The position numbers were made by a program, and so were the translations under genes. Of a stretch of DNA of 39,059 bases, positions 6,881-38,688 are shown piece by piece. The notes beneath the pieces were generated by a model. The model had not been told where the DNA came from. It searched no databases and worked only from the letters and a program-made list of their open reading frames with translations. Origin of the DNA: Cenarchaeum symbiont of Oopsacas minuta (lineage in GTDB: Archaea > Thermoproteota > Nitrososphaeria > Nitrososphaerales > Nitrosopumilaceae); the NCBI GenBank assembly GCA_029948415.1, contig JAJIZT010000006.1:1-39059 (forward strand), written 5' to 3'. Position 1 is the stretch's first letter; every line of letters begins with the position of its first letter.

Positions 6881-6894
6881 CTATGATGATCATT

Positions 6895-6902: not shown

Positions 6903-6923
6903 TGAGATAGCATATCATAAAAT

Positions 6924-7627: not shown

Positions 7628-7636
7628 GATATTGAA
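7628..7636. repeat. Target-site duplication GATATTGAA (left of IS5a copy 2)
   Basis: The 9-bp GATATTGAA immediately before IS5a at 7637 is repeated exactly at 8870-8878 immediately after it. Nine bases is the duplication size of the IS903 group of the IS5 family. Confidence 0.9.
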
Positions 7637-8869: not shown

Positions 8870-8878
8870 GATATTGAA
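8870..8878. repeat. Target-site duplication GATATTGAA (right of IS5a copy 2)
   Basis: Exact repeat of 7628-7636 directly after the right end of the element. Confidence 0.9.
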
Positions 8879-9253: not shown

Positions 9254-9274
9254 TTTGGGTACAAAAACTCGAGG

Positions 9275-9288
9275 TATGCAACTAAGTA
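9275..9288. repeat. Solitary IS5a-like end
   Basis: TATGCAACTAAGTA is the exact complement of the first 14 bases of IS5a, but the neighbouring bases differ from any IS5a copy. It may be a leftover end after deletion, or the end of a related element that includes the IS66 remnant. Confidence 0.45.
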
Positions 9289-9321
9289 CGCTACATCACA
9301 CAAGATATTGATGAGTGTAAA

Positions 9322-9401
9322 GAGACATGTAGACAACGAAATCTAAACTTTCATGACTATATATCTTGAGGATGGTACTTCAAAACTCTAGACAGTTACA
9401 A
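9322..9401. repeat. 80-bp dispersed repeat, right copy (inverted)
   Basis: Reverse complement of 54-133 with about three mismatches. The expected other end of the 288-bp element is not found at the matching distance to the left, so this copy is partial. It lies just upstream of the 50-aa/108-aa gene pair. Confidence 0.85.
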
Positions 9402-9450
9402 CATTTGTAATTGAAGGGCAACGAGTTTGGTTTGAGCGTGGAGACTAAGG

Positions 9451-9457
9451 TTTAAAT
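9451..9457 (+). promoter_or_regulatory. TATA-like box for the 50-aa gene
   Basis: TTTAAAT, in the context AAGGTTTAAATCC, is centred 26 bases before the ATG at 9480. This matches a leaderless archaeal promoter and supports the reality of the very short gene. Confidence 0.55.
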
Positions 9458-9479
9458 CCTCAAATTGCAAAGGTTGTGC

Positions 9480-9632
9480 ATGAGTGAATCAGAAAGTTGG
9501 GGCAGAGAAGATACGGTTGCAGCTATAGAATTTGATAAATGGTTAACAGATACAGAAGGGAAAAAAGAACCCATATACTACTATGATGACTTCGGTGAAT
9601 TAGTAGGTGCAATAGATGAAGCAATTAATTAA
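9480..9632 (+). CDS. Acidic 50-residue protein, first gene of an overlapping pair
   Basis: I do not recognise a family. The product starts MSESESWGREDTVAAIEFDK and ends GELVGAIDEAIN; it is strongly acidic, with no cysteines or membrane segment. A TATA-like box at the right distance supports expression from this ATG. The last 17 bases overlap the start of the next gene in another frame, which implies translational coupling. A small acidic protein encoded just before a small partner gene, in mobile DNA, is the arrangement of many antitoxin-toxin pairs, but no motif confirms this. Confidence 0.5.
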   Translation: MSESESWGREDTVAAIEFDKWLTDTEGKKEPIYYYDDFGELVGAIDEAIN

Positions 9633-9942
9633 TTTTTGGAATTTTGGACATTATCCCGATTTTTTTAATAGCATAAAAGATTTAAGTGGACTACAAGTAT
9701 GGCAATTAATTAAACATATTCAGACAATGCGAACAACTTCGTCTGTTGACAGCTTTAAACAGAAATCTAATTGTCCCACTCTTGATGTGAAACATGATCG
9801 TGAAGGGTATTATGCGCTCCTTTTATCAAAAAATGGTAATGGAGAGCATAGTATAAAATTGGATGTATGGTATGATACAGAGAGACGTCTTATTTGGCTT
9901 ATAAGATGTAAAGTTTTAGCAAAAAATCCGTTAGAAAAATAA
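9616..9942 (+). CDS. 108-residue protein of unknown function, second gene of the pair
   Basis: No family recognised. The product begins MKQLINFWNFGHYPDFFNSI, has a middle HDREGYYALLLSKNGN and a probable beta-rich end IKLDVWYDTERRLIWLIRCK followed by a basic tail. The start ATG lies inside the 50-residue gene upstream (17-base overlap). The alternation of aromatic and charged residues suggests a compact globular alpha/beta protein. Both genes sit between inverted IS5a copies. A toxin role is a hypothesis from arrangement only. Confidence 0.5.
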   Translation: MKQLINFWNFGHYPDFFNSIKDLSGLQVWQLIKHIQTMRTTSSVDSFKQKSNCPTLDVKHDREGYYALLLSKNGNGEHSIKLDVWYDTERRLIWLIRCKVLAKNPLEK

Positions 9943-9999
9943 TTTTAGAATTACTCTAATGCCGCTCAACTTTGCAATCAAAGAAGATCATTATTTACC

Positions 10000-11232
10000 T
10001 ACGTAATTGCACAACTTTTGATCGCCTTAACTCATACCAGCAAAAATGTGTCACCAGAGTACAATAATCCAATGAAAACAAACAATACGGTACAAAATAA
10101 GAACAATAGTCAGATAGATACGCGTTTTCTCATCAAGGTGTACTCAAACCAGCATCACAAAACATGTTGTAGACCCATACTTTTAATCGAAGCTCTTGCA
10201 CAATGTGATCCCATTTTCTTGACATGACAGAATCTCTTAAATGCAGAAAACACTACCTCAATTATCCAACGTTGACCATATCTAACACGTTTTTTCCACT
10301 CTGCTTGGTTTTTTAACATTGCATCATTTGGAGTAAATGCAAGATGCTTTATTTCTTCAAGCTGCTCACGAACCGCATCGTTACGTGCATAACGACCAGC
10401 ATGAAGTGCAGAATTTGATCGAACCTTTATCGCAGGCTTAATGCCAAGCTTTTGGCAGCGGTTAAAATTGGCGTTTGTATCATACGCACCATCTCCATAC
10501 AGTACGATATTGCATTTGTCCGCAGCTGTCGTGGATGCTATCTTGGATGCTGCCTTTAACAAGATAGAGAATTGCGAGCTGTCTGTTTTCTCCTCTGTGG
10601 TGACTGTAAAAGAGACAATTTTTCGAGTTTTAACATTTATGAGAAAGTATATCTTGATAAATCCGCGCCGTATCTTCCATTTGTCACGTATCCATTCGCC
10701 ACGCTCATTTGGTTTTATGCCACTACCATCTATTGCAAGATAGATATCTTTTAACTGATCAGATGGACTTTCAGGTATCTTTATTTTTAGTGCATTTATT
10801 CTGCGACATATTGTGGTATGATCTGGAGCATTTGAACCTAGAACATTCTGTGCAATTCCTTGACACGCTCTATATGAGATACTCGTGTATGTTTTGATTA
10901 TTGCAAGACTCTCAAATAGTTTATCAGAATACACAAATCGCCTTCCATTCTTTCCTTTATTTTTAATCTTTACTTGTTTTTTCCAAGATTTGGATTTTTG
11001 AATGGTTAGATGCGTGCCCCATTTGACGTATTTGCTATCAGCCATGTATGCAGAACCTCCTGATTGCACACATGTCAGCTAAAATCCGTACAGTAAACAA
11101 TACCATCGTATTCAACGTGGATCATTCCTGATGTGGGTTATTTTCATCAATAACCCATAATCATGGTGTGATCTATTTGTTTAGGTTTGAATTCTGTCTA
11201 TATGGTATTTAGGCAGGTTATGCAACTAAGTA
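10000..11232 (-). mobile_element. IS5a copy 3, inverted (1233 bp)
   Basis: Same length as copy 2 and opposite in direction. The end at 11232 is perfect (GCAACTAAGTA), but the end at 10000 reads TACGTAATTGCAC instead of TACTTAGTTGCAC, two changes within the terminal repeat. Flanks show no direct repeat. With copy 2 it forms an inverted pair bracketing 8870-9999, a configuration that can move or invert as a unit. Confidence 0.92.
10155..11069 (-). CDS. IS5a transposase (second intact copy)
   Basis: The protein is identical over 304 residues to the product of 7800-8714, with the same GTG start (ATG alternative 24 bases in) and the same D114, D193 and E271. Because one terminal repeat of this copy is altered, it may supply transposase for other copies better than for itself. 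Confidence 0.92.
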   Translation of the reverse strand: MQSGGSAYMADSKYVKWGTHLTIQKSKSWKKQVKIKNKGKNGRRFVYSDKLFESLAIIKTYTSISYRACQGIAQNVLGSNAPDHTTICRRINALKIKIPESPSDQLKDIYLAIDGSGIKPNERGEWIRDKWKIRRGFIKIYFLINVKTRKIVSFTVTTEEKTDSSQFSILLKAASKIASTTAADKCNIVLYGDGAYDTNANFNRCQKLGIKPAIKVRSNSALHAGRYARNDAVREQLEEIKHLAFTPNDAMLKNQAEWKKRVRYGQRWIIEVVFSAFKRFCHVKKMGSHCARASIKSMGLQHVL

Positions 11233-11276
11233 AAGTGCATAGCAACCTTTTTTGATCACCTCGTTTACAACAATTC

Positions 11277-12308
11277 ATGCAAGTCAGTGATGAGGATCTC
11301 CTTCAGGCCTATAACAAATGCAAAGATATACGCATGATAGCACGATTGCATGCCATGTGTTTGATGCAGATACGTGGTCTGGACATGACAGAGACAGCAG
11401 CTTTTATGTTCCGAACGTACCAGTTTGTATACAAATGGCACGATCGATATCAAAAATACGGACTCAAAGGCCTGGAGGAAAGGTCCAGATGCGGTCGTCC
11501 ACCTTTGGTGTGCTCACACACCATTGATGCAGATGGAAAAAACATTTACAGAAACAGGAACCATGATACTTCCAAAGCAAGTACGCGAATATATTAAAAA
11601 TAAAACTGGAATTACATACCATATTACACATGTTTGCAGAATTATGCGTGGATGGAAACTAAAAGCAAAAGTTCCACAAAAAATACACGCCAGCGCCTAC
11701 ATCATACGATGAATGCTATACATGGTATAGGAGCATAACGCAGATAATTACGCACGAAATGTCAAAGAGGACAAAAATTTTTGTCCAGGATGAGAGCATA
11801 GTCAACAGCGATGGAAAGATGATCAAAAAATACTGGTGCAACGAGGATGAGCGCCCCATCTATCGATGGAAGGGTGATCATCGAAAATTCATAGCATACG
11901 GAATGATCTCAATTTCCGGCGAGCGATTCTTTAGATCGTATGATAAATTTGATGGTCCAACATTTCTACGATACGTAAAAGATGCAGTTGCAAAATACGG
12001 TCGCATAATGATAATCGCTGACAGAGCCAGTCAACACAGAACAAAAGATCTTGAAAGGTATGTGCAGGAAAACCAAGACAAAATTCGAATCGAATATCTT
12101 CCAAAAGCATCGCCACAACACAACATCATGGAGACAATCTGGTTTGTTGCCAAGCAGGCTATGGATCATTCAGAGTATTATCCACAACTAGAGGATAAGA
12201 GAAGTAATTTTATGAAATATCTGAGAACAAAAAAACTACCTAATAACGTTACTGATTATTTTAAACCAAAGATGGAGGATTTTTTTAACGAACTTATGAT
12301 CTGCGGTA
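11277..12308 (+). pseudogene. IS630-family transposase, frameshifted and 3'-truncated
   Basis: Three frames together give an IS630 transposase. A helix-turn-helix head comes first (MQVSDEDLLQAYNKCKDIR, later KYGLKGLEERSRCGRPPLV). The middle REYIKNKTGITYHITHVCRI follows after a shift near 11515-11530. A DDE_3 catalytic part follows after a second shift near 11695: IFVQDES, MIIADRASQH and EYLPKASPQHNIMETIW. The glutamate of the DDE set lies in the last motif. The reading frame then passes directly into IS5b sequence near 12309 without meeting its own stop. Confidence 0.85.
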
Positions 12309-12757
12309 TACGTAACAAACAAACTCGTTTAAAACAAAATAAAAAAGCTAGTTTAAAACAAAATAAAAAACCTGGAACAGGCATAACTGCATTTGGAGAT
12401 GGAATTTATGCCACAAAACAAAACGTAAACTGTTGCATCAAAAATGGTGTAAAACCAGTTCTTAAAGTAAAGATAAACTCATCAGGTAGATCTTATGGAT
12501 GTATGGCTCGAAAGAAATTGGTAGATGCACAGCTTGGTGGCGGCCACAAATATATTTCAAAGCTTGATCGTAATCAAAGATTAGAAAATCAAAAAAAATG
12601 GTTAAAGGATAATAATTATGGCAAAAGACAAGCAGCTGAGATTGCATTCTCCACACTCAAACGCGTCTATGGTGATGCAGTAATGGCAAAAAACTGGACA
12701 AATATGCGTCAAGAGATCGCATTATACATACAACAAAATCATAGATATGGAGAATGA
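11759..12757 (+). CDS. Chimeric open frame: IS630 DDE_3 domain fused to IS5b C-terminal half
   Basis: One uninterrupted frame of 332 codons. Residues 1 to about 183 are the IS630 catalytic domain; from about 184 on it is the carboxyl half of the IS5b transposase (FGDGIYATK to IQQNHRYGE), keeping its second Asp and its Glu but lacking its first Asp. At the junction a 21-base unit is duplicated, giving LKQNKKASLKQNKKPG where intact IS5b has one LKQNKKPG. The first ATG is internal to the IS630 gene, so translation of this piece is unproven. It is most likely an accident of recombination, but the in-frame join is notable. Confidence 0.6.
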   Translation: MSKRTKIFVQDESIVNSDGKMIKKYWCNEDERPIYRWKGDHRKFIAYGMISISGERFFRSYDKFDGPTFLRYVKDAVAKYGRIMIIADRASQHRTKDLERYVQENQDKIRIEYLPKASPQHNIMETIWFVAKQAMDHSEYYPQLEDKRSNFMKYLRTKKLPNNVTDYFKPKMEDFFNELMICGIRNKQTRLKQNKKASLKQNKKPGTGITAFGDGIYATKQNVNCCIKNGVKPVLKVKINSSGRSYGCMARKKLVDAQLGGGHKYISKLDRNQRLENQKKWLKDNNYGKRQAAEIAFSTLKRVYGDAVMAKNWTNMRQEIALYIQQNHRYGE

Positions 12758-12843
12758 TGTGAGGTAAAGACATGGTATGAGGTAAAAGTGTAGCGCAGTA
12801 TATGTGAAATGTCATGTACAAAAATTAGTAATGAAACAAAGTC
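12309..12843 (+). mobile_element. IS5b copy 2, right half only
   Basis: It matches IS5b copy 1 from about 4410 to its right end ATGAAACAAAGTC, with scattered substitutions and a 21-base tandem duplication near the left break. The left half is replaced by IS630. It is followed by GACATTTC. Confidence 0.9.
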
Positions 12844-12851
12844 GACATTTC
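12844..12851. repeat. 8-bp direct repeat GACATTTC (right flank of IS5b copy 2)
   Basis: Identical to the bases left of IS5b copy 1 at 3771-3778. It overlaps the stop codon of the zinc-ribbon gene that follows, so the insertion fell at the very end of that gene. Confidence 0.75.
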
Positions 12852-13038
12852 AAATAACATTAATACGGGTTTTACAAATTTCTATATTTTCATCCATCGT
12901 ACAACATAAACCATGAAATTTCTCTTGAGTATAGTTTCCACATTCGGTACAGATTGCGGATGTACATTGAAAGCATTTTTTACATAATTTGATATCAGCT
13001 AGTGAACCTCCACAACCTCTACATGATTCATCTGGCAT
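12850..13038 (-). CDS. Small double zinc-ribbon-like protein
   Basis: From ATG 13038 the product is 62 residues: MPDESCRGCGGSLADIKLCK and then CFQC, CTEC and CC pairs. There are at least four Cys-x2-Cys type pairs, enough for two metal sites. The start is preferred over an upstream ATG at 13149 because the extra residues look non-coding and a TATA-like stretch lies 26 bases before 13038. Such small zinc proteins are frequent in these archaea, but no function can be named. Its stop codon overlaps the GACATTTC repeat that marks the end of the mobile region. Confidence 0.65.
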   Translation of the reverse strand: MPDESCRGCGGSLADIKLCKKCFQCTSAICTECGNYTQEKFHGLCCTMDENIEICKTRINVI

Positions 13039-26652: not shown

Positions 26653-26762
26653 TCGCCTACTTTGCATTAAAAACATCTGTATAAGGTTCACCTCATGACT
26701 AACAAATTAGTCCATAACACACGATCATATAGATCCAAGTATATCAATAACTGATCCATTTC

Positions 26763-27207
26763 ATGAAGGATAGACGTCCAACATATAGTGAATTGGAAGA
26801 ATGCATGAGAGTTTTTACAGAAAAAACAAATGAAACAATAGCAAAATTGACAGATCAGAATGATGTATTGAATAAAAAAATTACACTTCTCCAGAATCGA
26901 CTCGCATATTACGAAAACCCCAACACTCTACACGCTCACTTGAATATCTAAAAGAAAAACGCAAGGCAAGAGAAAACGGCGAATCACCACCACCAAAAAA
27001 ATCAGGCGGCAGTCTAGGCCACAAAGGAACATCACGCAAACACTAGTACCGTAATTTATACCATGAAAAATACCAAATGCAGTTGTGGTGGCACCATGAA
27101 ATATTCATACACAAAAACACGTGACATTATGACCAGCAGTTGTAGAAGAGACGACATGAAATCCGCATGTGCGTATGTACAAACTGCAAACGCGTATAGT
27201 ATGGAGC
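26763..27207 (+). pseudogene. IS66-family transposase, N-terminal remnant
   Basis: The first frame (26763-26951) gives the leader coiled coil MKDRRPTYSELEECMRVFTE and LLQNRLAYYENPNT. After a frameshift near 26925 the sequence reads SLEYLKEKRKARENGESPPP, KKSGGSLGHKGTSRKH and a stop. A third frame gives MKNTKCSCGGTMKY and DDMKSACAYVQT, a decayed copy of the IS66 zinc-finger region. The DDE catalytic part is absent. The carboxyl piece of an IS66 transposase lies far away at 8870-9253; whether both derive from one family is not shown. Confidence 0.75.
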
Positions 27208-27539: not shown

Positions 27540-29759
27540 ATGTATCTCATAATTATGAATATGGTGCTAAATGATTTCCTGAAAAAGAAAGCATGGGATT
27601 CTGGTTCTGATGATATTCTAGAAAATTTTTACAAACCTGCCTTGTTGTATACTAAAAGATATCGTCGACTCACAGGTTTTTTTTCATCTGGTGTATTTTT
27701 AGTAGCTCTCAGAGAATCATTGGATTTTATAAAAAATGGTGGCATTATCCAAATGGTAACATCTACAAAATTTTCACCAAATGATCTCAATATGATGACT
27801 GATGCTATTACTGGAAAAAATGAACAAAATTTTAACCCTTCAGAAATTCTTACCAAGATAGCCCAAAATGAATTCAATGATTCTACAGAACTCCTAAAAA
27901 ATTGTGCTGCTATACTAGGTTATATGTTACATAACAAGGTGGAAGGTGAATCTCAATTACAAATTAAAATTGCAATTCCAAATGAGAGCAATTCAATATT
28001 TCATCAAAAAATAGGCATATTGGATCTAAAATCTGGCGATCGAGTGAGCTTTTCAGGTTCTGTCAATGAAACAGCCAAAGGATGGAAAGAAAACATAGAG
28101 GAATTCAAAGTATTTCATTCTTCTAATTCTATAACCCATGAATGGTTTGAACATGATTGCAAAACATTTGATAGATACTGGAATAACAACGCACCAAAAA
28201 CCACTGTAATCGATTTACCTGAAGCAATCAACCACCATTTGATCAAAAAAAGAGTAGAAACAAAAGAAGAATTTGAAATTGTCGTAGAAAGCATTCGTAA
28301 GATCTTGGATGAAATTGATGATGGCGCTGATGGTTTGAACACTTTATTTTCTTTGTATCCTGAACAAAATAATGCCATAGATCTGTGGGCTAAAAATAAC
28401 TATCAAGGAATATTGGAAATGGCTACAGGAACAGGTAAAACACTTACTTCTATTGGTTGCATACATAGATTACTGCAGGAACAAAATCGTATGGCGATTA
28501 TAGTGGCCTGTCCATATACACATCTAATTGAACAGTGGGATTCAAGTCTTCATAAATGGAACAAAACACTTCCCAACAAGGAGATCCCAGTATCATTAAA
28601 AATTAATGCTTATGGTGATAGTGGTTCTGATTGGAAAAATGATCTAGATATAGCATGCGATAAATTCAATCGTAAGAGTCTCAGTGAAAGAAAATATACT
28701 CATAACAGAATGATGATCTATACCACGCACCAAACTGCATCTGATAGTGAATTCTTAGCCAGGATTAAGAAACTAAACGGTAGTGTACTGTTAATTGTTG
28801 ATGAAGTTCATAATATCGGAGCTCCAAAATTCTCTAACGCATTAGTAGAAAACTATGAATATCGTTTAGGTCTTAGTGCTACACCTACAAGGCATTTTGA
28901 TGTATTAGGTTCACAAATAATATTAAAATATTTCACTAAAGTTGTTTTCTCATTCTCTATCGGTGATGCTATATCAAAAAAACGTCTATCTGAATATGAT
29001 TACATACCGCATTACGTGGATCTTAACGATGATGAAAAACTCGAATATCAAGAACTGACTAAAAAAATTGCTAGATCATATTATAGTAAAAAAAAATTAG
29101 ACGATGCTGCTGAAGAAGAATACGGCAGTCGTTTTGAAATTGAACGATCAAAAAAAATCACCAAAGCTAGTAACAAATATGATGCCTTGGAAAGAATATT
29201 AGAAACTGAGAATATAAAATATGCATTAATTTACTGTCATGATCAAGAACAAATGCATAAAGTTAACACGATGTTGGTTTCAAGAAATATCAAAAGCAGT
29301 AAAATAACTTGGGAAGATCCAACAGAAGATCGTTTACAAAAAATAAGTCTGTTGACTACGGAACGATATGATTGTATCACCGCAGTTCGATGTCTTGATG
29401 AAGGTGTGGATATACCATATGCTAGTTTGGCCATAATTATGGCTAGCTCGGGAAATCCACGTCAATACATACAAAGGCGTGGAAGAGTTTTGAGAAAAAA
29501 TCCTGATGGCGTGGCAGTTAAATCTAGAATCCATGACATACTTGTTAAAACTATTACTGATGTTGATGGATCAAAAATTCTGCCATTTGAAAGAAAACTT
29601 GTGGCAAAAGAGCTTCTAAGACATAAAGAATTTGCACAAAATGCGGCAAACAAAGATGAAGCTATAGCCAAAATAAGCAAAGTTGCAAAAGAGTATGGAA
29701 TTGATCTAGAGTTACTGTCAGAAGATTACATACTGAACAATCTTACTAAACCGCGTTAA
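27540..29759 (+). CDS. Dnd-associated PLD-nuclease/SF2-helicase fusion (putative interference effector)
   Basis: The protein has up to 739 residues. The amino part is a phospholipase-D-type nuclease domain: HQKIGILD at 155-162 is a perfect His-x-Lys-x4-Asp motif, followed by FSGSVNETAKGW. An SF2 helicase follows: ATGTGKT at 295-301 (Walker A), DEVH at 421-424, GLSATPTR (motif III region) and QRRGR at 645-649 (motif VI). Such enzymes translocate on DNA and cleave or remodel it, and similar proteins are linked to dnd loci as restriction-type components. A single HKD motif implies dimerisation or non-nuclease use. The gene faces the other three genes of the module, ending with a four-base overlap. 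ATG 27555 or 27561 may be the true start. I assign no Pbe or Dpt letter. Confidence 0.8.
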   Translation: MYLIIMNMVLNDFLKKKAWDSGSDDILENFYKPALLYTKRYRRLTGFFSSGVFLVALRESLDFIKNGGIIQMVTSTKFSPNDLNMMTDAITGKNEQNFNPSEILTKIAQNEFNDSTELLKNCAAILGYMLHNKVEGESQLQIKIAIPNESNSIFHQKIGILDLKSGDRVSFSGSVNETAKGWKENIEEFKVFHSSNSITHEWFEHDCKTFDRYWNNNAPKTTVIDLPEAINHHLIKKRVETKEEFEIVVESIRKILDEIDDGADGLNTLFSLYPEQNNAIDLWAKNNYQGILEMATGTGKTLTSIGCIHRLLQEQNRMAIIVACPYTHLIEQWDSSLHKWNKTLPNKEIPVSLKINAYGDSGSDWKNDLDIACDKFNRKSLSERKYTHNRMMIYTTHQTASDSEFLARIKKLNGSVLLIVDEVHNIGAPKFSNALVENYEYRLGLSATPTRHFDVLGSQIILKYFTKVVFSFSIGDAISKKRLSEYDYIPHYVDLNDDEKLEYQELTKKIARSYYSKKKLDDAAEEEYGSRFEIERSKKITKASNKYDALERILETENIKYALIYCHDQEQMHKVNTMLVSRNIKSSKITWEDPTEDRLQKISLLTTERYDCITAVRCLDEGVDIPYASLAIIMASSGNPRQYIQRRGRVLRKNPDGVAVKSRIHDILVKTITDVDGSKILPFERKLVAKELLRHKEFAQNAANKDEAIAKISKVAKEYGIDLELLSEDYILNNLTKPR

Positions 29760-30169
29760 CATTTTTCTGCAATCATGTCTTCTAGGATCTGAGCGCGATT
29801 AGCAGTAGAACCTTTAATTTTTTTATAAATTTCAGAAAATCCTGCATTGGCATATTCTGCACATATTTTGACAATTTTGTTACTATCTTTTACAATTTTG
29901 ACATTTCTTTCTTCATGTATCGCAAGTGTTCTCATCATATGTCTCATTTGTGTATCAAAACCTCTTGGAGGGAGTTTTTTATCTCTACCTTCTATTGGTT
30001 TACGAGGTAGTTTGTTAGCATAAGCATATGACATTGCAAAAATGAATATTTCTGCCAAATCATATCCCTTAAACGGTGACCAGTCTTCAGTATTAAGTTT
30101 ATGATATTCTTCAGAATGATTTTCATCATATGGTATTGTAGGAAATTTAATTTCTAGATCTGATGACAT
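29756..30169 (-). CDS. Dnd system-associated protein 4-like (dnd_assoc_4)
   Basis: The 137-residue, probably all-helical protein has a core GYDLAEIFIFAMSYAYANKL followed by PRKPIEGRDKKLPPRGF, then a helical tail with MRTLAIHEERNVKI. The phenylalanine-rich helix followed by a proline and basic loop resembles the small 'dnd system-associated protein 4' family; this is from memory of the pattern and not from a search. It lies two bases after the stop of the SMC-type ATPase, in the same operon, and its end overlaps the helicase end on the opposite strand by four bases. Function in the family is not known. A structural partner of the ATPase is a reasonable inference. Confidence 0.6.
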   Translation of the reverse strand: MSSDLEIKFPTIPYDENHSEEYHKLNTEDWSPFKGYDLAEIFIFAMSYAYANKLPRKPIEGRDKKLPPRGFDTQMRHMMRTLAIHEERNVKIVKDSNKIVKICAEYANAGFSEIYKKIKGSTANRAQILEDMIAEKC

Positions 30170-30170
30170 T

Positions 30171-32324
30171 TTAGTTATGCTCCTCTATGGTCGAAATGGG
30201 TTTGATTGTGGATGTTCTATTTTTAGTATCATATCTTATTCTATATTCTGTTGTCTTGACATTTTCATTTAATAGCTCTTTCATGGTCTTCCCATTTTTT
30301 TCACCTTTGTTAACTTGTGCCATATACTCTGTATCTGTAGCAAGTAATATTATCTGAGATTCTTCTAAAAACCCTGGTAGTTTTTTGCCTAAAAGTTCTC
30401 TAGGCGTAGATGATACCCTTCCAAGTGGCGTGTCTATTATCAGTGGAAACAGATAGCCAGTAACTTTACGTAATGCTGCAATGAATGATAGAGCCATAAA
30501 CAGTCTTTCTCCTGCAGATAATGATCCTGTGACATCCCATCTATCTGTCTTTAATAATCTGAGATTAAAATTCTCATTTATGGTTATTCTATCAAAATCA
30601 TCTTTATACATTATTTGTTTAAAATATTCGGTCATGGTATTTTGAATTTTCTCTCTTAGATCTTCTTCTAGTGATATTACCATCCCATCTATTGTTGTCT
30701 TTGTATCTTCCCATATTTTTCTATTATGCTGAAAAATTCTTGTACGTTTATCTCTGACATTGAGTTTGCTTCTACTGTGTTGCATGTTTCTAAGTTCATT
30801 TTTTTTGTATTTTATTTCATATTCTAGATTACCAATTTCTCTATTAATATTTTCTTGAGTTTTTCTTAAATTATCTCGTTTAACAAGTAGTTCCACATGA
30901 TCATTATTTCCAGTTTTTTCCATTTTACTTCTAATCAATTTGAGTCTTTTTTGTGCATTTTTGTATGATTCATTTGAAGTTTCGTATTTGTCTCGTGCAT
31001 CATCAATGTCTTTCAATACGTTGCCATAATTTTCAAGCGCATTTTTATTTTCAAATCTTATGTTTAACGCGATATCGACATCTACATCATTCGACAATCT
31101 ATCTCTCATATTTTCTATATTTTTACGTGCTTTATGATTAATATGTAAATCATTTCCACACAGGCATTTGCCAACTGTTAGTAGATCGTCTGCAAATATT
31201 CTCTTTATTTTGTTTGGAAGTCCGCCTCTATCTTCCTCTTTTGATATCATGTCGATTGCATCCGATATTGCATCTTTTAGAAAAATAATTGGACCTTTTT
31301 TTACTAAATTCTGCACGCGTTCACATTCTTGATTCGTGTTGGTTTTGAGCATATAATCTATCTCACTTTCTTGTTCCTTTTCGTCCTGAGACAGCTTTTG
31401 CATGCTCTCTGCACCGATATTCTCTATCTCTTGTTGTGTTTCATTATATTCCTGAGTAATGTTCTCACTGTCTGTTTTTAGATCTTTCAACCGAGCTTCA
31501 CCAGATGCCACATAACATTTCCCACCATCATTTTCATTCCATCGTAAATCATGACTGTAGCGTATTGTTCCATCATCATTACGTGACTCTAAATGATTCT
31601 CAATATTTCGTATCTGTTTATTTAATTCCTCTATTTCTTCACTTAATCCTTTTGGGTTTTTTCTAACAATGTCTTTTATATTTTCTGCCACTTCTCCAAG
31701 CAAATCCACTTGTGCTATTTGATGTACGCCTTTTTTTATTTCTTCAAATTTATCAAAAAGGTTTTCTAGAAATTCTCCATCCAATATAAAAAAACGTGAA
31801 AGATTTTCTGGTAATATTTCCATTATGTGTGCATCAAAATTAAGATTACCTGGTTTATACGCACTATTCCCATCAAGCATATCAAATTCTCGTTTTATGT
31901 TAAATACCTCCAATCCTTTTGGTATGAGTAAACCGTTTTGATCATCAAGAGTGTAAACACTTGATCCATCAACATCTCTTTCTTCTAGACCATGTTTTGT
32001 GGCCTTTAATGTTCTTCTTATGACATAGCGACTCTCATTTTTTTTCATCATTAATTCTACCATTACTTCACATGTACTTTCTAAAGGTGCTTCTTCAAGA
32101 TGCTTGGTATTAATTATAGGTAAACTGGCAGATTTTCTTGTATGTGGTTCTTTGCCATACATGCACCAATTTATTGCATTAAGCAAATTTGATTTACCCT
32201 CTCCATTTTCTCCAAGAAAAACTGTAAATCCTTTATCTCTCTCGATCATGTTGACCGTTACTTGATCATAATACTGTCTGTAATTTTTCAGTTTAATCGA
32301 CGTGATCTCATACTCGTCACTCAT
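30171..32324 (-). CDS. DndD-like SMC/Rad50-type ATPase of the interference module
   Basis: From ATG 32324 the product has 717 residues. It begins with an ABC-type head (IKLKNYRQYYDQVTV; Walker A GENGEGKS at 38-45), has long coiled-coil arms (about residues 200-560), and finishes the head with LSAGERLFMALSF (signature, near 602) and LFPLIIDTPLGR (Walker B, Asp631) and LLATDTEY. Near the middle (C387-x-C389, KCLCGND) is a cysteine pair where Rad50 has a zinc hook. It is related to DndD but separate from the dndD gene in the same island. A longer start at 32393 is possible; 32324 is preferred because the family begins there and it overlaps the 70-residue gene by eight bases. The role is probably sensing or moving on invading DNA with the PLD-helicase. 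Confidence 0.82.
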   Translation of the reverse strand: MSDEYEITSIKLKNYRQYYDQVTVNMIERDKGFTVFLGENGEGKSNLLNAINWCMYGKEPHTRKSASLPIINTKHLEEAPLESTCEVMVELMMKKNESRYVIRRTLKATKHGLEERDVDGSSVYTLDDQNGLLIPKGLEVFNIKREFDMLDGNSAYKPGNLNFDAHIMEILPENLSRFFILDGEFLENLFDKFEEIKKGVHQIAQVDLLGEVAENIKDIVRKNPKGLSEEIEELNKQIRNIENHLESRNDDGTIRYSHDLRWNENDGGKCYVASGEARLKDLKTDSENITQEYNETQQEIENIGAESMQKLSQDEKEQESEIDYMLKTNTNQECERVQNLVKKGPIIFLKDAISDAIDMISKEEDRGGLPNKIKRIFADDLLTVGKCLCGNDLHINHKARKNIENMRDRLSNDVDVDIALNIRFENKNALENYGNVLKDIDDARDKYETSNESYKNAQKRLKLIRSKMEKTGNNDHVELLVKRDNLRKTQENINREIGNLEYEIKYKKNELRNMQHSRSKLNVRDKRTRIFQHNRKIWEDTKTTIDGMVISLEEDLREKIQNTMTEYFKQIMYKDDFDRITINENFNLRLLKTDRWDVTGSLSAGERLFMALSFIAALRKVTGYLFPLIIDTPLGRVSSTPRELLGKKLPGFLEESQIILLATDTEYMAQVNKGEKNGKTMKELLNENVKTTEYRIRYDTKNRTSTIKPISTIEEHN

Positions 32325-32529
32325 TATGATCATCTTCCTGGAATGGGTAATATTCATCAAGTAAGCGTGGGTACCTTTCCTTATACGGTGCAACTTTATT
32401 TAAAGTACTCCATTGGATCTGAACGTCTATTAATTTTTTGATAAAGTCTTCCTCATTTTTGTCCTTTGCTATCTCGTGGATTTTGTTCAAAACAAGATCA
32501 TTGATTTTATAGCCTCCCGTATTACTCAT
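32317..32529 (-). CDS. 70-residue protein, first gene of the interference operon
   Basis: No family recognised. The sequence starts MSNTGGYKINDLVLNKIHEI and is helical and charged, with a WSTLNKVAPYKERYPRLLDE stretch and an acidic tail (FQEDDHNE). It overlaps the ATPase start by eight bases, so translation is likely coupled. A TATA-like box 26 bases before its ATG makes it the leaderless first gene of a three-gene minus-strand operon, divergent from dndB. In gene order it would count as one of four components of a Pbe-like module. Confidence 0.6.
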   Translation of the reverse strand: MSNTGGYKINDLVLNKIHEIAKDKNEEDFIKKLIDVQIQWSTLNKVAPYKERYPRLLDEYYPFQEDDHNE

Positions 32530-32550
32530 GATGGTTAATTATATTATTAC

Positions 32551-32558
32551 GATAAATA
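32551..32558 (-). promoter_or_regulatory. TATA-like box for the minus-strand interference operon
   Basis: TATTTATC on the minus strand is centred 26 bases ahead of the ATG at 32529. Confidence 0.55.
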
Positions 32559-32597
32559 GCCTTTCAATCATGTTATTTTCACTTCATTAATTTATAG

Positions 32598-32607
32598 TAT
32601 ATAAATA
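32598..32607 (+). promoter_or_regulatory. Strong TATA box upstream of dndB
   Basis: TATATAAATA is an excellent archaeal TATA element. It predicts transcription from about 32628, nearly 200 bases before dndB, through the inverted repeat at 32684-32764. A weaker TTAAAG at 32784-32789 is placed for a near-leaderless dndB transcript, so there may be two promoters, or a separate small RNA. Confidence 0.5.
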
Positions 32608-32675
32608 AAAAACAACGTTTTCTAAACAAAAATATACTTCCAAACGATAAAACAATACGTATGACCATCGCTAAT

Positions 32676-32780
32676 ATTCACTCGTATGAGGTCACGTCCC
32701 TGCCTATAATTATCAAGAAAGTTCTGCATTTCCGCACAAAAATACGGAATAGCTGACCTCATACATTCACTCATTTGAGG
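32676..32780. repeat. Direct and inverted repeats in the dndB upstream region
   Basis: GTATGAGGTCA (32684-32694) is the exact complement of TGACCTCATAC (32754-32764). In addition, the 16 bases at 32676-32691 (ATTCACTCGTATGAGG) recur with two changes at 32765-32780. A short TTCCG/CGGAA pair lies within the loop (about 32730-32750). The arrangement could fold as a long stem in RNA or serve as operator sites, for example for DndB, which represses dnd genes in bacteria. Confidence 0.6.
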
Positions 32781-32815
32781 CAGTTAAAGGCAATCAGGCC
32801 AAAAATGACTTTTAC

Positions 32816-33793
32816 GTGGCAATGTGTACGCTCAAATCTGTAGCCAAATTGTTCTCGTTTTATGATCCGAGCACACCTGCAGAATCTAGAGCACAGAGAA
32901 CTCTAAGAAAATCTAGAATACCTCGTATCAGGGATTACATGATAGATAATCCTAAAGATTACATTTTTTCATCACTGACAGTATCAGTTGGCGGTAAGAT
33001 AAATTTTCATTCTTCATCAATTAGCAAATCTAGCAATCTTGGCACTATCTCAATATCCCAAGATGCATCAATTCTGATAAATGATGGACAGCATAGAGTT
33101 GCAGCAATACAAAAAGCAATAGAAGAGATGCCAGAACTTGGTATGGATACAATATCTGTAGTTTTTTTTGAAGATATCGGTCTGAAGAGAAGCCAACAAA
33201 TGTTTTCTGATCTAAATAAAAATGCGGTAAAACCTACCAAATCATTGGGTGTATTATATGATAACCGGAACCCATTCTCTTCCTTTATAGTTAAAATGAT
33301 CAAAAATGTCTCAATATTTCATAATTTAACTGAACTAGAAAAAACAACGATATCAAATCGTTCAAAATGTGTTTTCACACTTAATGGAATATCTGAATCA
33401 ACAAAAATTATTCTTGGTAAATCAAAAATACTTACCAAAGAAGAACAAACTTTAGTTACAGATTACTGGAATGAAGTAACTAAAAATATGGTAGATTGGA
33501 ATCTTCTTATCACAAAAAAAGTTACTGCTACAGAGCTACGAAAAGACTATGTCCATGCTAGTACTAATATGTTACAAGCTCTAGGATTAGCAGGACGAGT
33601 TTTACTTGATGAGTTTCCAAAAAATTGGAAGCGAAAACTTGTTGGACTTTCAAGAATAGATTGGAACAGAACAAACGATCTTTGGGAAGGTAAATTTGTC
33701 CTACACGGCAAGATGATAAAGAATCGAGCTGGTATAATTAGTGCCGCAAACATTATTCTTAAAGAATGTGATGCAAAGAGGAGGGCAAAATAA
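32816..33793 (+). CDS. dndB: DndB, DGQHR-domain regulator of DNA phosphorothioation
   Basis: The 325-residue protein carries the DGQHR motif at 90-94 (LINDGQHRVAAIQKA), followed by VVFFEDIGLKRSQQMFSDLN and NAVKPTKSLGVLYDNRNPF, all typical of the DndB/DGQHR family. In bacteria DndB is not needed for sulfur insertion but adjusts the level and site use of modification and represses dnd transcription. The start may be GTG at 32816 or ATG at 32822, six bases apart. The stop TAA overlaps the dndC ATG by one base (TAATG), so it is the first gene of the B-C-D-E-A operon. The repeats at 32676-32780 lie directly upstream. Confidence 0.88.
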   Translation: MAMCTLKSVAKLFSFYDPSTPAESRAQRTLRKSRIPRIRDYMIDNPKDYIFSSLTVSVGGKINFHSSSISKSSNLGTISISQDASILINDGQHRVAAIQKAIEEMPELGMDTISVVFFEDIGLKRSQQMFSDLNKNAVKPTKSLGVLYDNRNPFSSFIVKMIKNVSIFHNLTELEKTTISNRSKCVFTLNGISESTKIILGKSKILTKEEQTLVTDYWNEVTKNMVDWNLLITKKVTATELRKDYVHASTNMLQALGLAGRVLLDEFPKNWKRKLVGLSRIDWNRTNDLWEGKFVLHGKMIKNRAGIISAANIILKECDAKRRAK

Positions 33794-35205
33794 TGGACTC
33801 ATTTTTTAAGGATCATTCCATGGATGATCTGTTATCTGAAATACAGATGGTATATTTGGCAGACAATAGACCATGGATTCTAGGCTTTAGTGGCGGCAAA
33901 GATTCAACATGCATGATACAGATAATTTGGAAAGCAATGTCTCAACTTCCAAAGAAGAAAAGATCAAAGGAAATATTCATCATATCATCTGACACTCTTG
34001 TAGAGTCACCAAAGATCGTTGAAACTGTAATGAGTACTTTACAAAAGATGGAAAAAAGTGCCAAGGAAAATGATCTTCCAATAAAGACCAACTTGGTCAG
34101 ACCAAAAATTGATGACACGTTTTGGGTCTGTTTATTAGGAAAAGGATATCCTGCCCCTTCAACAACCTTTCGATGGTGCACAGACAGATTAAAGATAAAA
34201 AGTGCAAACAAATTCATCGAGGAGCGCGTCTCTGAATACGGGGAAGTAATAATGGCACTAGGATCTAGAAAAGCTGAAAGTAGCACTAGAGCTCAGGTGA
34301 TCAATGCACATCATATAGAAGGATCCCATCTATCTCATCACAGTACACTTCCACAAGCATTCATCTATCCACCACTACAGGATTTTACTACCGAAGATGT
34401 TTGGAACTATCTACTAAAAAACAAGTTAACTCCATGGGGTACAAACAATCGAGATTTACTTTCCATGTACCAAGATGCAAATGCTGCTGAATGTCCACTA
34501 GTCGTTGACACTAATACATCATCATGTGGAAATAGCAGATTCGGATGTTGGGTGTGCACAGTAGTTGAAAGAGATCGTTCAATGGAAAATCTTATAGATA
34601 GTGGCGAATTATGGATGGAACCTCTTTTAGAACTACGACAAATGCTAAAAGACACACAAGATCCAGAAAAGAAGAAAGAAGTTCGCGATTTAAAACACCG
34701 TAACGGTAACGTTGTTTTTTGGCATGATCGACTTACCATGGGGCCATACAAGTTTGAATTTTGTAAAAAAGTACTTGTATCTTTGCTCGAGGCACAGAAT
34801 GCTGTACGAAAAAATGGTCCAGATCCAAATATCGATCTTATAACTGAAGAAGAACTTCATGAGATCCAGCGAATTTGGAGAATAGAAAGAGGAGATTGGA
34901 AAAATTCTGTATATGAAATATATCGTGAAATCACAGACAAATCAATATCTTCCAACATGGATGATATGGGAACATTTGGAGTCATAGAACAAGAAGAACT
35001 TGAAAGAGCTTGTAAAGACAATGGTGTTCCATCATTGTTGATTGCTAGAGCACTTAATGCAGAATTTGAAACACAAGGTGCATCACATAGGCAAAAAATA
35101 CATCCTAAACTGGAAAAATTGTTATCAGAAGAGTGGGGAGATATGAAAAAGGCAGTAGATGTTGAAAGAAAACGAAAGAAACAGATGGAAGAGGTGCGAA
35201 TCTGA
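33793..35205 (+). CDS. dndC: DndC, PAPS-reductase-like sulfurtransferase
   Basis: The 470-residue enzyme activates the DNA backbone or transfers sulfur during phosphorothioation. It has the ATP-pyrophosphatase P-loop SGGKDS at 33-38, ISSDTLVESPKIVE, TTFRWCTDRLK (PAPS-reductase-like cysteine) and a later cysteine set: AECPL and C245-x6-C252-x2-C255 in SSCGNSRFGCWVC, which binds an Fe-S cluster in characterised DndC. A helical carboxyl extension (about 310-470) is usual for the family. It overlaps dndB by one base and dndD by one base (TGATG), indicating strict co-translation. Length and motifs are complete, so activity is expected. Confidence 0.93.
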   Translation: MDSFFKDHSMDDLLSEIQMVYLADNRPWILGFSGGKDSTCMIQIIWKAMSQLPKKKRSKEIFIISSDTLVESPKIVETVMSTLQKMEKSAKENDLPIKTNLVRPKIDDTFWVCLLGKGYPAPSTTFRWCTDRLKIKSANKFIEERVSEYGEVIMALGSRKAESSTRAQVINAHHIEGSHLSHHSTLPQAFIYPPLQDFTTEDVWNYLLKNKLTPWGTNNRDLLSMYQDANAAECPLVVDTNTSSCGNSRFGCWVCTVVERDRSMENLIDSGELWMEPLLELRQMLKDTQDPEKKKEVRDLKHRNGNVVFWHDRLTMGPYKFEFCKKVLVSLLEAQNAVRKNGPDPNIDLITEEELHEIQRIWRIERGDWKNSVYEIYREITDKSISSNMDDMGTFGVIEQEELERACKDNGVPSLLIARALNAEFETQGASHRQKIHPKLEKLLSEEWGDMKKAVDVERKRKKQMEEVRI

Positions 35206-37187
35206 TGTTACTTACTAATCTAGCGTTAGAAAATTATGGTGTATACAAAGGTCGTAACGAGCTAGATCTTTCTTGTACTGTAAACAAACCCATAGTGTTG
35301 ATCCGTGGCCTTAACGGTAACGGCAAGACAACCATACTAGAAGCCATGATGGTTGCATTATATGGTAGAATATATTTGGGTTCTCAAGCTACAAAAAAAG
35401 ATTACAGCAAATTCATTCAAGATAGAATGCATCGCAGTCTGGGCATTAGAACAAACCATGCATCACTTTCTGTATCATTCCAGTTCCATCACAACGGTCA
35501 GAATGACACGTATATGGTCAAACGTGAATGGATTCGAGGCGGTGGAGACTTTGAAGAATCCCTCATTATAGAAAAAAACGGCAAACGTATGCTTGAAATG
35601 GATGATGAACAATGGCGACAGTTCATTGAGGGACTTATTCCGTTTGGTATAACCAAATTGTTCTTTTTTGACGGTGATAGGATGACAAAGATAGCAAAAT
35701 GGAATAAACAAGGCAGAAATCCAGAACTAAAAAAATCATTTGACATGCTTCTTGGTACAGAACTTGTAAAGAGATTAAAATCCGATCTAGAAGTATATGT
35801 AATGAGGAAATCTGGCAAAACCGATCCAACATTAACCAAACAATTTCAAGAACAAGAAGAAGAGAAAAATGACATACAAAATAGCATTACGATTCTACGC
35901 GATGAACGTAAACATAAATCACAAGAACACGATGATGTGGTGACTAAAATAAGAGTGTTGGAAAGTGAAATACTACACATGGGAGGATGGTATTCTAAGA
36001 AACGTGAAACTCTAATTTCACAAAAGAGTATATCTGAATCGAATGTAACCCATTTGCATGAAAATTTGACATCTATGCTGGAAAGCACGATCCCATTTTG
36101 CATATTGCCAGATCAATTTCTATCTCGAATAACAAAAAAACTTGAGAGTGACATAAAAATGTCTGGTGGAAGATTTGCTAAAAATTTGATCGAAAAAAAA
36201 ATTGTGAGTATAGAAAATAATGAAATCACATCCAAGAAAATTTCAAAACTAAATAGATCTACCGTGCTTGAAATTTTAAACCAATTACTTGATGAATGTA
36301 CGGGAAATAATCTATATTTTGATCTGTCTCCAAATGAACGTGATAAAATAATCTATATGGTGATAAATAAGAAAAAAGAAATAACATCTCTCTACAACAC
36401 GTCGAGTAAATATGCTGATCTCAAGAAAAAATTACTCCAAGTAGAGATGAATCTAGCAAATGTTCCAAAAGATGATGAAATCGGACCCAAAATCACAGAA
36501 TTGAACGCATTAAATCTTGAACTTGGAAGAGTAAAAAATGAGATTGACGAGCTGGATCGTAAGATATCTTCAAAGGAATCATATCTTAGGATCGTTCAAT
36601 CTAGAATGGAAAAACTGCTAAAATCTGCACATTTGAATGGTAAAAATTCGACTGGAGTGACGTTAGCAGGACTTATGCAAAAAACCTTGACTTTGTATTA
36701 TGCAGGTTTGAGAGCAAAAAAAATGATTCGACTTGAGGAAAACTTGTTGGAATCTATACATGTGTTAATGCGTAAAAACATGATAAACCGGGTATCAATT
36801 GACAATGATAATTTTTCAATAATTCCTTATGATAAAAATGGAGATTCTATAACTGGAGGTCTTATGTCCATGGGCGAAAAACAGATGGTAGGTACTTCAT
36901 TACTTTGGGCTCTAGCTAGAACTTCTGAACGACCGTTGCCTTTTGTAATTGATACTCCACTTGCAAGACTTGATGGTGTACATCGCTCTAATTTAATAGA
37001 ATCATTCTATCCGTTTGCTTCACATCAAATAGTAATGTTGTCCACCGATAAAGAAATAGATCAAAAGGAATATACAAAACTTAGAAACTATATATCAAAA
37101 ACATACAGTTTAGTTCAAGATGGATCATCGCGCGTAACAAACATCATAGATGGATATGTAATGGAGGAAGAAATTGTTACAAAATAG
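35205..37187 (+). CDS. dndD: DndD, SMC-like ATPase of DNA phosphorothioation
   Basis: The 660-residue ATPase has split-head SMC architecture. LALENYGVYKGRNELDL leads to Walker A GLNGNGKT at 35-42; coiled coils span about 200-500; the signature SMGEKQM is at about 555-561, Walker B lies around Asp583 in FVIDTPLARLDG, and the switch is VMLSTDKE. DndD hydrolyses ATP, probably to nick or reshape DNA for sulfur incorporation together with DndC and DndE. Its start overlaps the dndC stop by one base, and the dndE TTG start lies 14 bases inside its end. It is distinct from the related ATPase encoded at 30171-32324. Confidence 0.93.
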   Translation: MLLTNLALENYGVYKGRNELDLSCTVNKPIVLIRGLNGNGKTTILEAMMVALYGRIYLGSQATKKDYSKFIQDRMHRSLGIRTNHASLSVSFQFHHNGQNDTYMVKREWIRGGGDFEESLIIEKNGKRMLEMDDEQWRQFIEGLIPFGITKLFFFDGDRMTKIAKWNKQGRNPELKKSFDMLLGTELVKRLKSDLEVYVMRKSGKTDPTLTKQFQEQEEEKNDIQNSITILRDERKHKSQEHDDVVTKIRVLESEILHMGGWYSKKRETLISQKSISESNVTHLHENLTSMLESTIPFCILPDQFLSRITKKLESDIKMSGGRFAKNLIEKKIVSIENNEITSKKISKLNRSTVLEILNQLLDECTGNNLYFDLSPNERDKIIYMVINKKKEITSLYNTSSKYADLKKKLLQVEMNLANVPKDDEIGPKITELNALNLELGRVKNEIDELDRKISSKESYLRIVQSRMEKLLKSAHLNGKNSTGVTLAGLMQKTLTLYYAGLRAKKMIRLEENLLESIHVLMRKNMINRVSIDNDNFSIIPYDKNGDSITGGLMSMGEKQMVGTSLLWALARTSERPLPFVIDTPLARLDGVHRSNLIESFYPFASHQIVMLSTDKEIDQKEYTKLRNYISKTYSLVQDGSSRVTNIIDGYVMEEEIVTK

Positions 37188-37539
37188 AATCCGACTTAGC
37201 TCAAAATCACAAACTTTGTTATCCTTGTTGAAAGGCAAAACTCATTTACCAATAAATGTACTAGCACGATACGGAATATGTTTATCATTGCGTGATAATA
37301 CAATTCCAAATGTAGACATATATGATGAGAACGGTATGGATCTACCACTGCATGTGTTATTTGGAGAATATGATCAGATCTTTGATGTAATCATGCGACA
37401 ACGCTTGGAAGATGATAAATTGGATTATGAAAAATACAGTGACAGAATGCTCAGAGCACATCTGAACAGAGGGGCTGGTATGTTGCATCCTAGGATCAAT
37501 GATCTCGATGACTTTTCAAAACTGATGGAAGTAAGATAG
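37174..37539 (+). CDS. dndE: DndE, small DNA-binding component of phosphorothioation
   Basis: The 121-residue protein matches DndE in size, position and the start RIRLSSKSQTLLSLLKGKTH followed by NVLARYGICLSLRD, then DENGMDLPLHVLFGEYDQIF and LRAHLNRGAGML. In bacteria DndE binds nicked double-stranded DNA. The TTG start overlaps dndD by 14 bases; no ATG fits the conserved amino end. The TAG stop is followed at once by the dndA ATG. Confidence 0.85.
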   Translation: MLQNRIRLSSKSQTLLSLLKGKTHLPINVLARYGICLSLRDNTIPNVDIYDENGMDLPLHVLFGEYDQIFDVIMRQRLEDDKLDYEKYSDRMLRAHLNRGAGMLHPRINDLDDFSKLMEVR

Positions 37540-38688
37540 ATGCAGTTTCCAATATACTTGGATCATCATGCCACAACACCACTTGATCGACGTGTATTAG
37601 ATCACATGATGCCATACCTAACAGATGATTTTGGCAATGCGTCTAGTTTGGATCATAAATTTGGCCATGATGCTTCGTTAGCAGTAGAATCATCTAGAAA
37701 ATCCATAGCTAATTTGATAGGATCAAGACCTACTGAAATTGTGTTTACCAGCGGAGCTACAGAATCGGACAACTTGGCAATCATTGGAACTATGAACCAG
37801 TATAAAGATAGAGGCAATCATATGATAACATGCGTCACAGAGCACAAGGCAGTTTTAGCCACTGCAGAATATATTGAAACGCAGGAAAAATCAGTTACAT
37901 ATCTGTCTGTGGATAAGAAGGGAAGGATCAACTTGAAAGAATTAGAAGATACAATAACAGATTCCACCGTATTGATATCCATTATGGCTGCAAATAACGA
38001 AATTGGTACTATTGCTGATATTGAAGAGATTGGAAAAATTGCCCACAAGAGAAATATCATATTTCATACTGATGCAGCACAGGCAATAGGTCGAATTCCA
38101 ATTGACGTGGTAAAAATGAATATTGATCTTATGTCCATATCTGCACACAAAATGTATGGGCCAAAAGGAGTTGGAGCACTTTATGTACGTGGGATCAATC
38201 CACGGATCAAACCAAGCCCGATATTACATGGCGGAGGTCAAGAAAGAGACATACGTTCTGGAACTTTAAACATACCAGGAATCGTTGGATTTGGCAAGGC
38301 CGCAGATATAGCATCTAAGGAGATGCTGAAAGAACAAAAACAATTCATATTGTGGTCTGATATTATGCTTACAGAATTTGAAAAAGTAGGGGGGGCGCTA
38401 AACGGATCCAAAAAAGATCGACTTGCACACAATTTGAGCATTTGTTTTCCCGGAATAGAGAGTAAAGCTATAATAAATTCTGTCTCAAAAAAGCTTGCTA
38501 TATCCTCTGGTTCTGCATGCACTACTCAAACGGTAGAACCGTCACATGTACTTCTTGCCATCGGTCTAAATGAAAATGATGCACATTCATCCATACGTAT
38601 AGGACTTGGACGGTTTAATACGCTTGAAGAAATAAAAAAATCATCAAAAATTATAACTGATGCAGTAAAAAACATTGATAATATTTAG
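37540..38688 (+). CDS. dndA: DndA, cysteine desulfurase for DNA phosphorothioation
   Basis: The 382-residue PLP enzyme of the NifS/IscS group takes sulfur from L-cysteine as a persulfide and passes it to DndC. Visible features are the start YLDHHATTPLDRRVLDHMMP, TEHKAVL, HTDAAQAIGRIPIDV, Schiff-base Lys204 in SAHKMYGPKG, RSGTLNIPGIVG and catalytic Cys327 in SSGSACTTQTVEPSHVL. The full length is present. Clustering at the end of the operon (order B-C-D-E-A, as in archaeal DndCDEA loci) assigns it to phosphorothioation rather than general Fe-S assembly, although the two roles can overlap. Confidence 0.9.
   Translation: MQFPIYLDHHATTPLDRRVLDHMMPYLTDDFGNASSLDHKFGHDASLAVESSRKSIANLIGSRPTEIVFTSGATESDNLAIIGTMNQYKDRGNHMITCVTEHKAVLATAEYIETQEKSVTYLSVDKKGRINLKELEDTITDSTVLISIMAANNEIGTIADIEEIGKIAHKRNIIFHTDAAQAIGRIPIDVVKMNIDLMSISAHKMYGPKGVGALYVRGINPRIKPSPILHGGGQERDIRSGTLNIPGIVGFGKAADIASKEMLKEQKQFILWSDIMLTEFEKVGGALNGSKKDRLAHNLSICFPGIESKAIINSVSKKLAISSGSACTTQTVEPSHVLLAIGLNENDAHSSIRIGLGRFNTLEEIKKSSKIITDAVKNIDNI

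Follow-up and report, generated by a model that had tools for sequence, protein, structure and literature searches.

Gene content of the island

The window analysed here is a stretch of 39,059 nt that makes up one whole contig (C6) of the 1.63-Mb genome (11 contigs, 96% completeness) of the Cenarchaeum symbiont of Oopsacas minuta. Judging by its predicted proteins, the window carries what is almost certainly a DndCDEA–PbeABCD island, an antiviral system based on phosphorothioation (PT) of DNA. The system type is already known, and its presence in Thaumarchaeota is not new. An earlier note on this DNA had claimed nine reading frames at nt 27540–38688, and all nine are present where it placed them. 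They are listed here with a small element that lies among them (aa, amino acids):

nt 27540–29759, plus strand: pbeA, phospholipase D (PLD)/HKD nuclease-like domain followed by a superfamily 2 (SF2) helicase (ResIII and Helicase_C), 739 aa
nt 29756–30169, minus strand: pbeD, DndE-like partner, 137 aa
nt 30171–32324, minus strand: pbeC, DndD-like ABC ATPase with a CxC motif, 717 aa assuming a start at ATG 32324
nt 32317–32529, minus strand: pbeB, 70 aa, overlapping pbeC by 8 nt if pbeC starts at ATG 32324
nt 32684–32764, no strand assigned: 81-bp element resembling a miniature inverted-repeat transposable element (MITE), with 11-bp inverted ends and an 8-bp duplicated flank, interrupting the 5' end of dndB
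nt 32816–33793, plus strand: dndB open frame, 325 aa from a GTG, lacking the conserved N-terminus
nt 33793–35205, plus strand: dndC, sulfurtransferase with a C-terminal Sp-DndD-like tail at about residues 403–444
nt 35205–37187, plus strand: dndD, ABC ATPase, 660 aa
nt 37174–37539, plus strand: dndE, 121 aa, TTG start
nt 37540–38688, plus strand: dndA, cysteine desulfurase, 382 aa

DndC, DndD and DndE are encoded together and with a cysteine desulfurase, DndA, the gene complement by which a Dnd modification system is recognised. DndC matched TIGR03183 with 519 bits (cut-off 290) and the PADLOC DndC model with E = 9e-185, DndD matched TIGR03185 (428 bits, cut-off 246), and DndB matched TIGR03233 (361 bits, cut-off 328) over profile positions 20–338. 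DndE scored 76 bits with the Pfam DndE model, above its cut-off, and 68.7 bits with TIGR03184, slightly below the cut-off of 71.85; DndA gave 526 bits (E = 1.5e-158) with the PADLOC model and 409 bits with TIGR03235, below the cut-off of 480. The four additional genes, described in the earlier note as Pbe-like, are PbeA, PbeB, PbeC and PbeD, a result obtained by profile searches and, for PbeB, from its position and its similarity to a protein of island B, one of two further islands of this genome (islands B and C, described below). PbeA matched the PADLOC model over positions 12–710 (635 bits, E = 3.5e-191) and TIGR04095 with 377 bits, below the cut-off of 600; its ResIII and Helicase_C domains scored above the Pfam cut-offs and PLDc_2 below (24.9 bits, cut-off 27). 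PbeC matched its PADLOC model with E = 1.3e-93. PbeD matched TIGR04062 (dnd_assoc_4; E = 6e-9, 36 bits, below the cut-off of 74) and is 43% identical to PbeD of island B, and it had no match to the PADLOC PbeD model. For PbeB, no match was found in the Pfam, NCBIfam and PADLOC libraries; the 70-aa gene is called pbeB because it adjoins pbeC and its product shares 27% identity over 60 aa (40 bits, E = 1.8e-11, one-to-one comparison) with the protein at the equivalent position in island B. The profiles dnd_assoc_1, 2 and 3, which we take to be DptG, DptH and DptF, had no match in the window's genome, nor did any control genome match them. All eight genes other than dndB are open frames of adequate length for their families.

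PbeB, PbeC and PbeD as possible counterparts of DndC, DndD and DndE

PbeC is clearly related to DndD (profile comparison by hhalign, P = 4.5e-71), and is set apart from it by a CxC motif in the middle part of the protein, present in 40 of 47 PbeC and in 0 of 36 DndD proteins; in the window it reads CLC, at residue 386 of the predicted protein (P0003). PbeD showed a weak profile match to DndE (P = 0.0036), with DndD as the next best profile (P = 0.085). A sequence search of the PDB gave no relative of DndC or DndD at E 0.01 and no useful relative of PbeD.

As a family, PbeB looks like the C-terminal tail of DndC with which that protein docks on DndD. A predicted complex, supported by pull-downs, places residues 433–482 of DndC on the head of DndD, and point changes in this stretch, at L458, E462 and R471, disrupt the binding (PMC12193691). 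The window DndC carries this tail too, with a PF20306 match (E = 1.6e-4) of 22.1 bits, below the cut-off of 27.2. The scan for related loci covered 80 of 140, among the matches listed, and 15 of these 80 (L094–L108, weak partial helicase matches) were excluded from later comparisons. PbeB candidates were picked by an automatic position rule, which yielded 62 picks from the 67 loci with PbeC; the set excludes loci L014 (identical to L013), L066, L080, L092 and L109. The PbeB of L092 (Halorubrum salsamenti) was assigned by hand, as its overlap of 80 nt with the longest PbeC frame exceeds the limit of 60 nt.

When a hidden Markov model (HMM) of 37 DndC C-termini was run over 10,012 small open reading frames (ORFs), the top five matches (E = 3.9e-9, 4e-4, 6e-3, 0.012 and 0.058) all lay between pbeA and pbeC. 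The best was the PbeB of Halorubrum salsamenti, which still scored E = 4.4e-9 with the DndC of its own locus omitted. In the converse direction, a profile of 44 PbeB sequences, which leaves out L092 and 18 divergent picks, aligned to DndC at its tail with P = 3.5e-4, compared with 0.2–0.99 for seven other Dnd/Pbe profiles. With all 62 picks the best alignment was still to DndC (P = 0.0015), and with L092 added to the profile the match was P = 1.8e-4. The Pfam family PF20306, described as a 'small protein found in certain Dnd systems', scored above cut-off on one of nine PbeB (Halorubrum salsamenti) and four of ten DndC tails, or, counting matches below cut-off, on 3/9 PbeB and 12/15 DndC. Lastly, among 46 segments of about 60 residues taken from seven Dnd/Pbe alignments, the best PbeB match came from the last DndC segment (E = 0.0066); the best from any other segment was E = 0.02 (a DndD segment).

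Several results count against equating PbeBCD with DndCDE. The window PbeB is itself too divergent for a direct profile match, and its link to the DndC tail runs through the family. The hhalign probabilities for PbeB and DndC are low (37% with 44 PbeB, 49% with L092 added, 16.5% with the 62 picks), as is that for PbeD and DndE (9%). Addition of L092 improved unrelated profiles as well, the best reaching P = 0.038, and PF20306 had no match in six of the nine PbeB and three of the 15 DndC proteins. Enrichment of PbeB in the ranked list (area under the curve (AUC) 0.979) was rejected as proof of identity with the DndC tail, being inflated by composition: a DndD control segment gave an AUC of 0.968 and 10 of the top 20, so the enrichment is largely compositional. 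The case relies instead on the E-values, the hhalign comparison and the Pfam model. A literature search found no statement, in the text accessible to it, that PbeB corresponds to the DndC tail; the likely founding description of the CxC systems lay outside that search.

The nuclease motif of PbeA

The window PbeA retains the HKD residues in alignment (H155, K157, N176 and E177). So do 67 of 71 PbeA-like proteins, from bacteria as well as from archaea, and the PLD motif was therefore rejected as a special feature of the window protein. It had been taken to distinguish the window helicase from the haloarchaeal one, a distinction that does not stand: the motif is kept in all five haloarchaeal PbeA aligned (L089, L092 and L109–L111, a set without H. 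jeotgali), and the PLD domain of PbeA was described already by Xiong 2019 (PMC6459918). Four of the 71 lack the residues. One is L093 (1,286 aa), counted here although it is a long ORF and not a true PbeA, and three are thaumarchaeal: those of island C (L004:16148–18280), G150 and G084 (L016:743–2863 and L018:5137–7395), in which DK, RE and VE replace HK. A gene for an HNH nuclease adjoins each of these three, but also the intact PbeA of island B.

These data bear on whether PbeA cuts DNA at all. The island could be the same system with a PbeA that never cuts, PbeABCD only blocking viral replication and PbeA serving as a translocase. In the haloarchaeal system viral replication was blocked with no visible cleavage, viral DNA being intact by Southern blot, and there was no toxicity without PT (Xiong 2019, PMC6459918); this weighs against any cleavage step, and the loss of the HKD residues from three thaumarchaeal PbeA points the same way. 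On the other hand, retention of these residues in nearly all PbeA-like proteins argues for selection on the active site, and the HNH-nuclease gene beside each HKD-less PbeA also speaks against this explanation, though one intact PbeA has the same neighbour. A PbeA that never cuts is considered rather unlikely. Having both HKD-bearing and HKD-less PbeA, the window's genome provides a natural matched pair for the cleavage question.

Interruption of dndB by a mobile element

The island had been called complete, with dndB-C-D-E-A intact. While dndC, dndD, dndE and dndA are indeed open, dndB is broken by the 81-bp element. The conserved N-terminus of DndB is in frame solely downstream of the element (nt 32768–32815), behind an in-frame stop, and no ATG, GTG or TTG is available for this stretch before GTG 32816. 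In 15 of 16 relatives compared, the corresponding stretch lies within the open frame; the part of the sixteenth (L009) that was compared ends short of the region. The element belongs to a family found at 41 places in the window's genome, including the window copy. One other copy is 100% identical over 85 bp, and among 19 further copies inspected, 10 carry an 8-bp duplication.

dndB encodes a repressor and is missing from four haloarchaea with detected PT (PMC6459918), so the remaining components can function without it. Loss of dndB to a small mobile element has probably left the marking operon derepressed, as in the haloarchaeal systems without the gene. The same lesion could instead mark a decaying island under relaxed selection, with a broken dndB, remnants of mobile elements and three parallel islands in one genome. 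The MITE in dndB would fit such decay, as would an insertion sequence (IS) remnant at the island edge and the disrupted pbeA copy of a relative (L014). Yet the remaining eight frames are uninterrupted and of a length that suits their families, and the PT-positive haloarchaea show that a missing dndB need not signal decay. We judge decay to be quite improbable.

Proposed mechanism

On whether Pbe proteins cut the DNA whose replication they stop, two papers take opposing views. In the haloarchaeon studied, defence needs pbeB, pbeC, pbeD and the PT mark, and partly pbeA (PMC6459918), and no cutting was seen there; a Nucleic Acids Research paper of 2024 argues for cutting or suicide (PMC10853773). 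For the window island, we regard the following scheme as reasonably probable. From the families of the proteins, DndA would strip sulfur from cysteine and DndCDE would insert it into the backbone of host DNA at a short motif. PbeBCD most likely scans sites as a complex shaped like DndCDE but without a sulfurtransferase, because PbeC is related to DndD, PbeD seemingly to DndE, and the PbeB family resembles the docking tail of DndC. It would sample sites of the DndCDE kind and, where these are unmodified, engage PbeA; the HKD-nuclease/helicase would then stall replication and may nick or cut the DNA.

The 2024 paper (PMC10853773) proposed a suicide module, in which PbeA attacks host DNA upon infection and PbeB is an inhibitor that is released. 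The argument made there is from an HKD nuclease accompanied by a small disordered protein, but members of the PbeB family share a domain with the docking tail of DndC, unlike a free inhibitor, and deletion of pbeB abolished defence, with no killing of such cells reported in the accessible text of PMC6459918. We judge a suicide module, too, to be quite improbable.

Taken further, and more tentatively, the scanner scheme suggests that PbeBCD may be a paralogous DndCDE complex in which PbeB, a docking tail, is all that is left of DndC. Restriction would then be carried out by the modification machine minus its marking enzyme, with a helicase-nuclease plugged in, and would read DndCDE sites. Its thaumarchaeal versions may have been re-engineered by inversion of pbeA, by loss of the HKD residues at least once with an HNH gene alongside, and by exchange of modules among three islands. 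If PbeBCD is DndCDE without the sulfurtransferase, target recognition becomes testable through one short docking tail.

Gene layout and distribution

The helicase gene had been reported to face the others, and this layout is real. It was also found in island B, in G090 and in both of the near-identical island copies of G173, while G005, G150 and island C have a co-directional pbeA and G084 a divergent one. Outside the family, all 58 loci with both PbeA and PbeC (69 loci loaded) are co-directional with PbeA first. In a tree, PbeA of the window, island B, G090, the whole G173 copy and G060 form one clade with a support of 1.0; the fifth member, G060, is on a contig too short to show orientation. 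The facing pbeA is a genuine clade-specific layout variant. The order A-B-C-D on one strand, which is usual but is no part of how the proteins of the system are defined, does not occur in the window. In the second island copy of G173, pbeA is in pieces (L014:14469–16655); the other copy (L013) is whole.

Among 250 genomes of the family, DndC scored above cut-off in 23 (13 of the 131 of good quality), and just two, the window's genome and G005, carry three DndC. Near-full-length PbeA occurs at at least nine places in seven genomes (G000, G005, G060, G084, G090, G150 and G173), a lower bound since at most four candidates per genome were scored. The wider set of matches to the PbeA model in the family (171 of 250) was not accepted as PbeA as it stood, most of those listed covering the helicase half or about the first 230 positions only. 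Many genomes of the family (e.g., G001:C1:70204–70839) carry a free-standing relative, an ORF of about 225 aa that matches approximately these first 230 positions, the PLD half, with E values between about 1e-40 and 1e-53.

Other genes accompany thaumarchaeal dndBCDEA elsewhere. At three loci (L021 1584–6020, L022 2322–6619 and L028 1721–6046) no Pbe module was seen in the stretch examined; dndBCDEA is there accompanied by a GHKL ATPase whose N-terminus is MzaB-like, together with an SF2 helicase and a third protein that in L022 is weakly PLD-like. This trio is a candidate alternative partner module. Schlafen/AlbA_2-like and GmrSD-like genes also recur beside dndBCDEA (L004 2887–5551, L024 14814–17381, L009 13050–19587 and L027 5118–7777), as judged by similarity to the L004 pair, the one covered by the library scan; the GmrSD-like protein of L004 also matches SspE models.

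Host genome, probable insertion site and sister islands

The thaumarchaeal host named in the earlier note is supported by an unsplit RNA polymerase A'+A'' gene in the window, presumably a marker of Thaumarchaeota. This gene occurs once per genome in the six searched (its own and five relatives), with 81–84% identity between the window's copy and those of the relatives, so the contig is most probably a true part of the genome. Downstream of rpoA, three relatives carry an LSm-like gene and two long genes, and then L30e-, nusA- and rps12-like genes (named by eye). The island was probably inserted just after rpoA, because in the window that gene precedes the IS remnant and pbeA instead. Features outside the nine genes are:

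nt 26679–27197 of the window, no strand assigned: IS remnant between rpoA and pbeA, in two pieces that share 89% and 90% identity with DNA next to dndB in island C
C1, about 732–746 kb (L005, L007): island B, with dndBCDEA, an AIPR/AbiU-like gene and pbeB-C-D, the last faced by a pbeA that adjoins an HNH gene
C1, about 913–932 kb (L004, L006): island C, with dndBCDEA and, on one flank, Schlafen-like and GmrSD-like genes

The other flank of island C has an HNH gene and a divergent Pbe module, of which PADLOC recognises PbeA, PbeC and PbeD. With these two islands the genome has three DndC genes. The dnd module of the window is nearest to that of island C (DndC 70%, DndE 57%), and its pbe module to that of island B (PbeA 40%, against 27% for island C; PbeD 43%, against no real match). 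On these identities, the dnd and pbe modules have been exchanged between islands of one genome, in line with the weak correlation of DndCD with PbeAC in Xiong 2019 (PMC6459918).

At nt 1–13000 of the window there are several transposase-like stretches (named by eye), 84–99% identical to DNA near islands B and C. A gene at nt 332–1159 matches radical SAM mobile pair protein A, below the cut-off.

Comparison with known systems

The earlier note considered sulfur modification of DNA in this phylum to be newsworthy, but six of the 42 archaea with dndCD in Xiong 2019 were already Thaumarchaeota (PMC6459918), and dnd genes have been reported from sponge and marine thaumarchaea (PMC7848895, PMC6790972) and are known also from PMC12780485. 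A literature search for PbeABCD in combination with Nitrosopumilus found no paper.

The closest described counterpart is the DndCDEA–PbeABCD system of Haloterrigena jeotgali A29 (Xiong 2019, PMC6459918), which shares the PLD-helicase PbeA, PbeB, the ATPase PbeC, PbeD and dndCDEA. Its PbeB has 66 aa (70 in the window) and its PbeD 152 aa (137 in the window). The window differs in having a dndB, though a broken one, in a pbeA that faces pbeDCB where the haloarchaeal pbeABCD is led by pbeA, and in that pbeBCD is divergent from the dnd genes. The CxC ABC-ATPase–DndE systems (PMC10853773) are alike in the CxC hook of PbeC, in a PbeA that combines HKD and SF2 domains, and in the small protein; their PbeD is a DndE cognate, as that of the window may be. 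The small protein is described there as mostly disordered and a likely negative regulator, whereas here its family matches the DndC tail. Within the window's own genome, islands B and C likewise combine dndBCDEA with Pbe modules. The facing pbeA is common to the window and island B, and PbeA of island C, unlike that of the window, lacks the HKD histidine. The window island is a new member of an already known kind of system, with a clade-specific layout.

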